This document shows positions 37,753-40,534 of a stretch of DNA of 64,000 bases, in pieces (position 1 is the first letter of the stretch; each line of letters starts with the position of its first letter). The notes under the pieces are model-generated. The model made no database searches and was not told where the DNA came from. It saw only the letters and a program-made list of their open reading frames with translations. The position numbers were made by a program, and so were the translations under genes. The stretch lies in NCBI GenBank assembly GCA_005223185.1, contig NJBN01000001.1:1-64000 (forward strand), read 5' to 3'. Origin of the DNA: a candidate division LCP-89 bacterium B3_LCP (lineage in GTDB: Bacteria > Electryoneota > B3-LCP).

Positions 37753-38043
37753 CTACAACGGAACCGCTTCCCTTAGAACGCGTTGGCGAATCCGCTTTTT
37801 TAAACCCTGCTCGGTGACTACATCTACATCACAATGTAACAGCTCTCGGAGATCCATCAACAATCCTCCCATATCGAACAGGTTCCGTCCGGATTCCATG
37901 TCCACTAGGAAATCCACATCGCTGTGTTCATCACTTTCGCCACGAGCGACGGAGCCAAAAACGCGGACATTGTGAGCGCCATGTTTGGATGCAAGCTCAA
38001 CAATTGCTTTGCGTTTGCTCTTTATTTGCCTATCGATCTGCAT
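37753..38043 (-). CDS. MNT-type minimal nucleotidyltransferase, no HEPN partner seen
   Basis: A 96-residue nucleotidyltransferase domain with the MNT signature GSVARGES...DVDFLVD. Members of this group are usually antitoxins that AMPylate a HEPN RNase toxin encoded next to them. Neither neighbour is a HEPN protein: downstream is the 261-residue membrane-anchored protein, upstream another nucleotidyltransferase. It is either an orphan, or it acts on a distant partner such as the HEPN-like protein at 43.7-44.5 kb. ATG start at 38043; a short AT-rich gap precedes it. Confidence 0.8.
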
Positions 38044-38182
38044 TTGTCTTTAATATTGTGTTAGATCCTATACTACCCCCTCCTGAATACCGTACGACGC
38101 ATCCCCCCAATATAACCACAATCTACCTCTAAATGAAATAAATCTTTCGCTTTTACGCTTGGGGCATCGGTGTTTGGTGGGG

Positions 38183-38749
38183 TTAAGGTTTCAACTTATC
38201 TGCTTCGTCGATGATCTTCTCCAGCATCTCCTCAACCCCTAACTCATGTGCCCACTTGCGTAGATAGTCTAGATCCAAATTCTCTCTTTGAACTTCGATC
38301 ACACCAGACGCATCGCGTATTTGGCGTTCGGAATCGCTGGATTTTGCCCAAACAAGTTTGCTCAGGATAGCATCTTCAGGGGAGGTGACTCTTACCTTCA
38401 CACCAAATATCAAGCCCGCTCTCCTCCTTTGAAAAGCCTCCTTTTGAAAAGGGAGGTTCTTCAGCACAATGAGGTCAGCTTTCCAACCTGTTTTGTGATC
38501 GATAATATTGAACATAGTGTGTTTTCTGTAGGCATCGCGAGCCGCATCGCTGCTTATGTAATAATCTTCGGAAAACGAGTTAAGAAATAATTCAAACTGA
38601 TCCTGTGTTGGCTGAATAACGATGTCAAAATCATTCGTGGTGCGAGGCACCCCCCATAAACCACTTGCCATCGATCCTGTCACCATGTAGGGGATTTTCG
38701 CCGTTTCCAATTTGTTGATTAACCGCACCAAAAAATCGCTTTCTTCCAT
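38183..38749 (-). CDS. AbiEii-like nucleotidyltransferase family protein
   Basis: A 188-residue nucleotidyltransferase-fold protein with VTGSMASGLWGVPRTTNDFDIVI, a match to the GS-x9-DxD pattern, followed by helical regions. Similar proteins occur in toxin-antitoxin-like and abortive-infection contexts, but also as lone enzymes. Its ATG overlaps the stop codon of the small upstream gene (TAATG), so the two are translationally coupled. Internal features include SPEDAILSKLVWAKSSDSERQIRD, found in this group. Substrate unknown. Confidence 0.65.
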   Translation of the reverse strand: MEESDFLVRLINKLETAKIPYMVTGSMASGLWGVPRTTNDFDIVIQPTQDQFELFLNSFSEDYYISSDAARDAYRKHTMFNIIDHKTGWKADLIVLKNLPFQKEAFQRRRAGLIFGVKVRVTSPEDAILSKLVWAKSSDSERQIRDASGVIEVQRENLDLDYLRKWAHELGVEEMLEKIIDEADKLKP

Positions 38750-39043: not shown

Positions 39044-39511
39044 CTACACCACCTCCGGTGCCACAATCCAGACCACTGACCAGGCGCCTTCTTCATCCCG
39101 CTTCAAACAGACGATGCCGCCGTTCCTAAAGTCAATCACCTTTTGCGCTGCATCGCCGGAGATCAACAGCGAAGCCAGCCGGCTCAAGTGCGGTAGATGA
39201 CCTGCCAGCATCATATCATCTGTTAGTTCTTCAATCTTAGCTGCCCAGATGTCAGGATCATCCATGGGAGCCAAGCCTTCTGCCGCCTCTACCCCACCTT
39301 GAAGCTGCAGGTATTCCCCCAATATTTCTGCGGTCTGGCGCGCCCGAGTCTTATCGCTATGAAGGATGCGATGCACCGTGCCACATGCTCCTTTAGATGC
39401 CACATAGGATGCCACCTTGCGGACGTCTGCCTCTCCCTCATCGGTCAAGGATCGGTCGGGATCCTCTTCCTTCGGTTTGGACTTTCCGTGCTGGACTAAG
39501 TAAAGAAGCAT
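39044..39511 (-). CDS. sixA: Phosphohistidine phosphatase SixA-like
   Basis: A 155-residue histidine phosphatase-superfamily protein. It opens with LYLVQHGKSKPKEEDPDRSLT; the usual RHG is QHG here, a substitution found in many SixA relatives. The segments SDKTRARQTAEIL and LAGHLPHLSRLASLL carry the second Arg and His of the active site. SixA removes phosphate from phosphohistidine, for example in ArcB-like or PTS proteins. It is followed after 16 bases by the small-protein/nucleotidyltransferase pair and may be in the same operon. Confidence 0.82.
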   Translation of the reverse strand: MLLYLVQHGKSKPKEEDPDRSLTDEGEADVRKVASYVASKGACGTVHRILHSDKTRARQTAEILGEYLQLQGGVEAAEGLAPMDDPDIWAAKIEELTDDMMLAGHLPHLSRLASLLISGDAAQKVIDFRNGGIVCLKRDEEGAWSVVWIVAPEVV

Positions 39512-39556: not shown

Positions 39557-39585
39557 TTGACTTTTCCGTTTACAGTCGTTATATT
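39557..39585 (+). promoter_or_regulatory. Strong sigma70-type promoter in the sixA-DUF3800 interval
   Basis: TTGACT (39557-39562) and TATATT (39580-39585) are separated by exactly 17 bases. It points rightwards, although every protein gene for 8 kb on either side runs left. Confidence 0.7.
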
Positions 39586-39591
39586 ATTAGT

Positions 39592-39720
39592 ACGAACATC
39601 TTCGGGGATGCAGGCATAACCTGATCGGTTATGCGCCTTTCGGCTGCAGTCGGATCTGCTTCCCCGCTACTTTAAATGCGAAAGAGGCGCCTCGGGCAGA
39701 CGGCGCCTCTTCTCATCTCT
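39592..39720 (+). ncRNA. Candidate structured non-coding RNA
   Basis: Downstream of the promoter lies a compact fold. An 11-bp closing stem with one mismatch (CGGGGATGCAG at 39603-39613 with CTGCTTCCCCG at 39656-39666) encloses a perfect 8-bp hairpin (GCATAACC/GGTTATGC, 39614-39634) and a small GCC-TTTC-GGC hairpin (39635-39644). After a linker comes a perfect 9-bp hairpin (AGAGGCGCC/GGCGCCTCT, 39683-39710), which could end the transcript, although the following T-run is weak. No tRNA, SRP, RNase P, tmRNA or 6S signature is seen. It could instead be a leader for sixA read on the other strand; the promoter favours the plus strand. Confidence 0.5.
39683..39710. terminator. Hairpin after the RNA candidate, possibly bidirectional
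   Basis: A perfect 9-bp stem with a 10-base loop. Rightwards it would end the RNA candidate; leftwards it lies 47 bases past the stop of the DUF3800 gene. T-runs on both sides are poor. Confidence 0.45.
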
Positions 39721-39757: not shown

Positions 39758-40534
39758 TCATTCGATAATGTTCATCCCCCTTATCTCAAATTCTCCTTGT
39801 CTTATCGACGATACGAATTCCATGGATTGCACCTCTTCAAAGAACTCCTTCACTTCTCTGCGCCCTCCATGGTTCTGGTTGATAATATAAGCAAAGATAT
39901 CTGCTATCTGTAGTCCTATAGAATGAGATGCCGGTGCAAATAGCGGCGAACCCATCACCCCGTGAAATCCTCCCCCGAAGGTGGTCTTGTACATGAAGTT
40001 CATGACACTCGATCCTAAGACCCGATCGCGGTGTGTCTCTTCATTCTTGAATACCAGCTTTGCCAACTGTCCGGGATTGCTTTCCAGCATGAAAGTGTTG
40101 ATTCTCTCGATGAGATAAGCTAAAAGTAGTGAACAGACCTCTTCGTTATACCAGTCGGATCCCGATATGGCGCCTTTTTGCACAAGTACGGGAATGCTGT
40201 TGGCGTTGTTCTGCTTATTCTGATGAGCACAGCGCTTGGTGGTGGAAAAAATCGCAACTTCTTCGAGGCGACAGAGGCTGAAGAGTTCTCCAACGAATTC
40301 CACCTTTCGGTAGCTTGCCAGAGCTCGATGGCTGGCTAAGGACCTACCTAAAAGTGGATACTCTCCAATCCCCGGCTTCTTGAAGAACCTGCCCTTAAGC
40401 CTCATCAGCTTCAAGCAGAAATCGTCATAAGAAGTCTCATTTAACGCAACGCCAGCAATGGTAGCGTAGTAATCATCTTCTCCGGGGCGTTGCCAGCGGC
40501 TTTCATCGATAAAGACCAGTATAGACATCCACAA
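39758..40534 (-). CDS. DUF3800 family protein
   Basis: A 258-residue protein with the RNase H-like DUF3800 layout: LVFIDES near the N-terminus, a central conserved region, and SIGLQIADIFAYIINQ towards the end. These contain the acidic residues expected for metal binding. DUF3800 proteins are frequent near mobile or defence genes, but their activity is unproven. The frame begins MWMSILVFIDES, so the true start may be the second ATG. It sits between the RNA candidate and gyrB as a single gene. Confidence 0.8.
   Translation of the reverse strand: MWMSILVFIDESRWQRPGEDDYYATIAGVALNETSYDDFCLKLMRLKGRFFKKPGIGEYPLLGRSLASHRALASYRKVEFVGELFSLCRLEEVAIFSTTKRCAHQNKQNNANSIPVLVQKGAISGSDWYNEEVCSLLLAYLIERINTFMLESNPGQLAKLVFKNEETHRDRVLGSSVMNFMYKTTFGGGFHGVMGSPLFAPASHSIGLQIADIFAYIINQNHGGRREVKEFFEEVQSMEFVSSIRQGEFEIRGMNIIE

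Follow-up and report, generated by a model that had tools for sequence, protein, structure and literature searches.

A promoter-driven three-way-junction small RNA convergent with a DUF3800 gene in candidate division LCP-89 and related bacteria

In a 64,000-nt stretch of the genome of candidate division LCP-89 bacterium B3_LCP (contig NJBN01000001.1, positions 1 to 64,000; here called the window), positions 39604 to 39665 of the plus strand encode a compact, 62-nt small RNA that has its own housekeeping promoter and, as sequence comparison shows, folds into a three-way junction. The same comparison shows vertical inheritance of the RNA gene, which faces a DUF3800 gene linked to gyrB. We consider it nearly certain that the RNA gene is real. 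A preliminary description of the region had proposed a promoter-driven, structured, noncoding, and possibly novel small RNA, and the promoter, the covariation, and the absence of any Rfam match bear this out. The best reading of the evidence is that the RNA is a new member of the DUF3800-associated RNAs, forming a family new to Rfam 15.

Promoter, fold, and transcript end

The features of the locus are as follows.

39044-39511, minus strand: sixA-like histidine phosphatase gene, a divergent and inconstant neighbor
39557-39585, plus strand: sigma-70 type promoter TTGACT-N17-TATATT, with box and spacing common to all six homologs
39604-39613, plus strand: 5' strand of the P1 closing stem, GGGGAUGCAG, assigned from the fold and covarying pairs
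39614-39634, plus strand: P2 hairpin, 8 bp, with the conserved apical sequence CCU(G/A)AUCGG, assigned from fold and covariation
39639-39654, plus strand: P3 hairpin, 5 to 6 bp, variable in sequence and covarying, assigned from fold and covariation
39656-39665, plus strand: 3' strand of P1, CUGCUUCCCC, assigned from the fold; a T-tract follows closely in some homologs
39683-39710, no single strand: bidirectional 9-bp terminator-like hairpin, common to the RNA and the convergent DUF3800 gene
39758-40528, minus strand: DUF3800 protein gene, the convergent partner, with a putative RNase H-like fold and a degenerate acidic site; an ortholog lies beside the RNA in 6/6 genomes

The -35 box (TTGACT, 39557-39562) and the -10 box (TATATT, 39580-39585) are separated by a spacer of exactly 17 nt, just as first described. 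A local scan found 3 promoter sites against 3.1 expected, so that one match of this kind is no more than chance would give. Across the 3.8-Mb genome, TTGAC-N18-TATATT occurs at 213 sites, compared with 3 for the reversed control pattern, and we therefore regard it as the consensus of the organism's own strong promoter class. All six homologs retain the promoter, as TTGAC(A/T)-17-TATATT upstream of the RNA. The overrepresentation of the pattern is also useful in annotating the host phylum.

On the plus strand, the window sequence folds at -56 kcal/mol (z -4.2), and no shuffled sequence was equally stable. P1 pairs 39604-39613 with 39656-39665 in 10 bp with one U.U mismatch; the closing stem had been described as 11 bp long, a length reached only by counting C39603-G39666. 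P2, the 8-bp internal hairpin of the preliminary description, pairs 39614-39621 with 39627-39634 around the loop UGAUC. P3 pairs 39639-39644 with 39649-39654 (6 bp in the window) and has a counterpart of 5 to 6 bp in every homolog. A 3-bp hairpin (GCC/GGC) suggested earlier is possible, but it competes with P3 and is neither the favored nor the conserved fold. No long plus-strand open reading frame lies nearby, in agreement with the reported gap in plus-strand protein genes.

The perfect 9-bp terminal hairpin noted previously is present, with 39683-39691 pairing with 39702-39710. In all six genomes a second hairpin lies between P1 and the DUF3800 stop, and its better T-tract, where there is any, faces the direction of DUF3800. 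Because the T-tract of the terminal hairpin in the homologs is stronger on the minus strand, this hairpin would also, or mainly, terminate the convergent gene. T-tracts stand close behind P1 in G004, G005, and G001 (GCTTTTTT, GTTTTT, and TGTTTT, respectively), and P1 plus the following T's may serve as the terminator in some homologs. Since this unit may itself terminate, we place the transcript length in the window at about 75 to about 125 nt.

Conservation and covariation

A DNA search found two relatives, both folding alike. We built a covariance model from these three sequences, each folded separately, and it gave a single strong hit per genome in all six sampled members of the family, each of which represents a different genus. 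A model rebuilt from the six sequences recovered those six copies and nothing else among 386 genomes. Those relatives that have named records are metagenome-assembled bacteria labeled candidate division LCP-89, Calditrichaeota, Zixiibacteriota, or marine bacterium; LCP-89 is assigned to the FCB group.

In the alignment of the six sequences, 97.1% of the cells are paired, and 8 pairs have changed on both sides, in 13 cells. The covariation score is 0.412, compared with 0.218 (standard deviation, 0.035) in shuffled alignments, none of which (0/500) reached the observed value. When the partners were slid by one to three columns, pairing fell to 40 to 47%. This alignment was fitted to the model and is hence flattering, and the three separately folded founding sequences agree with it. 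Compensatory changes in the closing stem, which the preliminary description had set as its test, were found at pair 5 (A-U to U-A) and pair 9 (A-U to G-C), and both P2 and P3 contain such changes as well. The strand could also be assigned, with 13 G-U against 3 A-C cells favoring the plus strand (P = 0.011).

Several candidates were rejected. Hits of the first-pass model in other genomes or at second sites (L014 to L018) had neither the promoter nor the DUF3800 context and resembled repeats or coding sequence. Pattern matches in Proteobacteria, Microbacteriaceae, Hyphomicrobiales, Lactobacillaceae, and Sphingomonas were judged to be chance; the best of them, which reached 32 bits after preselection from 257 billion bases, overlaps reading frames, one of which resembles a membrane protease.

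The DUF3800 neighbor and related RNAs

The preliminary description placed the RNA between sixA and the DUF3800 gene without recognizing that DUF3800 is the constant partner; sixA is not constant, and the gene on this side differs among the six genomes. The RNA is convergent with a DUF3800 ortholog (50 to 63% identical) in all six, and the ortholog adjoins gyrB in five of them, the G002 contig starting too close to show gyrB. Two nucleotidyltransferase-like genes lie at 37753-38749 (minus strand) between gyrA and sixA in the window; genes of this type are again found near the RNA in G002 and G005, which suggests a variable insertion spot beside it.

Within one family, vertical inheritance by itself could account for the synteny, and the only independent case is G027, from another family of the phylum. 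Beside the gene of its distant DUF3800 protein (32% identity) lies, at the corresponding position, an RNA with this architecture, in the order TTGACT-17-TATACT promoter, GGGAACGG, a hairpin topped by CCUAAUCGG, a third hairpin, CCGTTCCC, and ATTTTTCTTTT; that is, P1, the CCUAAUCGG-topped hairpin shared with the present RNA, P3, and then a T-tract. The model score of 23.7 bits (E = 0.004 over 34 DUF3800 loci) is weak when taken alone, because a chance match elsewhere reached 32 bits. MAFFT misplaced the G027 helices, and this sequence was left out of the pair counts. At the closest DUF3800 paralogs (L070, L071, and L072), no such RNA was found, so the DUF3800 protein does not always need one. 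These genes represent a second DUF3800 paralog, 43 to 53% identical, located beside apparent sigma-factor and anti-sigma-type genes (L070 is at C4 of the B3_LCP genome).

Some DUF3800 proteins are tied to CRISPR loci in the literature. The domain has been described as having an RNase H nuclease fold (PMC10910872, PMC12669027), and one of these two papers noted an earlier link of DUF3800 with putative noncoding RNAs. The AlphaFold model of the protein encoded in the window is of low confidence (pLDDT 55.5, pTM 0.61); the PDB structures closest to this weak model are RNase HII/HIII, none of them significant (E ≥ 0.02). The protein had no match in PADLOC or in PDB sequence searches, and no relatives of it were found in the viral contigs and plasmids searched. 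An alignment of 76 DUF3800 proteins shows broad retention of the putative site acids; by analogy with the RNase H fold, we infer that these alignment columns form the nuclease site. In the present clade the third site acid is lysine in 8/8 proteins (six orthologs and two paralogs), and further losses are D to E, E to S, and D to N. The first D is changed in G002 and G005, the second acid also in G005, and the last D in G001. The clade thus lacks the intact acidic site of an RNase H-like nuclease, and the RNA is retained despite the decay of this putative site.

A search of the whole window with Rfam 15 (4,227 families) at gathering cutoffs gave no match, and no tRNA or tmRNA was found. Weak Rfam matches to STnc250 and GlsR14 were rejected as chance, since they are far below the cutoff and rest on the terminator. 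The numbered DUF3800 RNA motifs, which reportedly stem from Weinberg et al. in 2017, did not match the present RNA even at E values up to 10. The closest in layout is DUF3800-VII (RF02967; L116 and L099), typed as an sRNA, which is likewise promoter driven and convergent just downstream of DUF3800, with two hairpins enclosed by a closing stem. There is, however, no sequence or covariance match, and the conserved letters are unlike (GTAGGTCG..GGCAGCGC..GTGGGATCCTAC versus GGGG..CCUGAUCGG..CCCC). DUF3800-VI (RF02915; L123 and L097) is also structured and adjoins a DUF3800 gene, but it lies upstream in the gene's direction and is typed as cis-regulatory, whereas the present RNA is downstream and convergent. 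DUF3800-I (RF02969), DUF3800-IX (RF02968), and the other numbered motifs are structured RNAs named for their DUF3800 neighbors, with no match here; RF02969 was not detected in 291 genomes, nor in any control genome, so that its absence is weak evidence. As all Rfam models were tested and none fitted, we assign the RNA to no numbered motif. It nonetheless shares the features of DUF3800-associated structured RNAs, namely, a covarying structure, a DUF3800 (PF12686) neighbor, and its own promoter, and its conserved neighbor places it in this known kind.

Type III toxin-antitoxin RNAs are short tandem repeats upstream of the toxin in the same operon. The present pair resembles them in having a structured RNA beside a putative nuclease gene but differs in that the RNA is a single unit, not a tandem repeat, and is convergent with a gene whose active site is degenerate.

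We surveyed 75 DUF3800 loci from genomes across the domain (69 excluding the six orthologs) for convergent promoters, defined by at least 10/12 matches and a -10 box ending 20 to 180 nt past the stop. Such promoters were found at 28/75 loci and, without the orthologs, at 25/69, compared with 9/164 control gene ends in the same loci (25/69 versus 9/164; Fisher P = 1e-8). Elsewhere at the 75 loci the counts were 6/75 on the same strand and 4/75 and 0/75 upstream. Most of the convergent promoters precede short RNAs that are stem-closed and T-ended, with a mean z of about -3 against single-base shuffles. This suggests that more than a third of the DUF3800 genes sampled are faced by the promoter of a convergent RNA and that most of these RNAs are outside Rfam.

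When grouped by eye, several sets of these RNAs have common letters. DUF3800-VII was identified with the Rfam model at L099 and L116 and by eye also at L103 and L129, and DUF3800-VI occurs upstream of DUF3800 at two loci (L123 and L097); the other groups gave no hit at the Rfam cutoff in the loci scanned. The RNAs of L078, L092, L094, L096, L100, and L117 have in common a small hairpin, GGAGGTGGA, another hairpin, and a terminator, with no Rfam match among the members scanned. L107 and L119 have three-way-junction RNAs with a common AATTCGGCT.CATGCCGTGT, and their closing stems differ, yet each matches. At L075, L076, L079, L083, and L089, downstream convergent RNAs contain GGGG...CCCGGTCG followed by a terminator hairpin. 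L095, L128, L132, and L140 show a long closing stem (CCTCCTCA / TGGGGAGG in two) and near-consensus promoters. At L102, L110, L112, and L142, the RNAs downstream of DUF3800 combine a short hairpin on the 5' side, GGGA(G/A)A, and a strong hairpin on the 3' side.

Proposed role and alternatives

On balance, we think it rather likely that this RNA serves its DUF3800 protein as a dedicated partner. Binding by the protein would involve the closed three-way junction together with the CCU(G/A)AUCGG hairpin, and in the resulting complex the RNA may be a cofactor, a scaffold, or a sequestering ligand. Because the acidic site residues have been lost in this lineage, the pair is probably an RNA-protein complex rather than an active nuclease, and it looks domesticated. 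A guide role is unlikely, since the stem in G005 begins only a few bases from the expected transcription start and leaves no free guide segment. Elsewhere, DUF3800 proteins with intact sites have analogous convergent RNAs, L078 being one example. A wider proposal, which we hold tentatively, is that DUF3800 and a convergent RNA make up a widespread two-part RNA-protein system with many seemingly unrelated RNA families beyond Rfam, which here would have been domesticated beside gyrB, losing the nuclease site and keeping the RNA and its binding for a cellular role.

We think it unlikely that the RNA is instead a separate small RNA with a housekeeping or regulatory function, whose target would be mRNAs, RNA polymerase, or some other protein. 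Such a role would fit the strong promoter and the strict conservation, and a single syntenic locus accounts for six of the seven cases, the adjacency to DUF3800 then being due to the stability of the gyrB region. Against it stand the G027 RNA, located beside a distant DUF3800 gene, and the general enrichment of convergent promoters downstream of DUF3800 genes, where DUF3800-VII is among the RNAs. Still less probable is a cis-acting element that would regulate DUF3800 by an antisense effect or by convergent transcription, or would serve as an elaborate terminator for both directions. The convergent layout, the common hairpin with its T-tract toward DUF3800, and the overlap of the G027 RNA with the 3' end of the DUF3800 reading frame would suit it, but the RNA has kept its own consensus promoter in 6/6 genomes, about 90 nt, with the terminator hairpin among them, separate its core in the window from the DUF3800 stop, and compensatory change preserves the structure as the sequence drifts, for which antisense pairing alone has no need. 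It is highly improbable that the element is a leader or riboswitch on the minus strand, serving sixA or the genes that follow: the minus strand likewise gives a stable fold (z -6.1), but the pairs fit the plus strand better (97.1% versus 89.8% of cells), the conserved promoter is oriented oppositely, no space is left for a minus-strand promoter between terminator and element, and the downstream minus-strand gene varies among genomes.

In the literature searched, we found no description of a domesticated, degenerate-site pair or of a general convergent layout. The present finding extends the known, unexplained association between DUF3800 genes and small RNAs. It adds a clean pair in which a 62-nt RNA of defined fold and a small protein keep their position across six genera. 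If the two are partners, as we favor, the degenerate active site here would separate RNA binding from cleavage.
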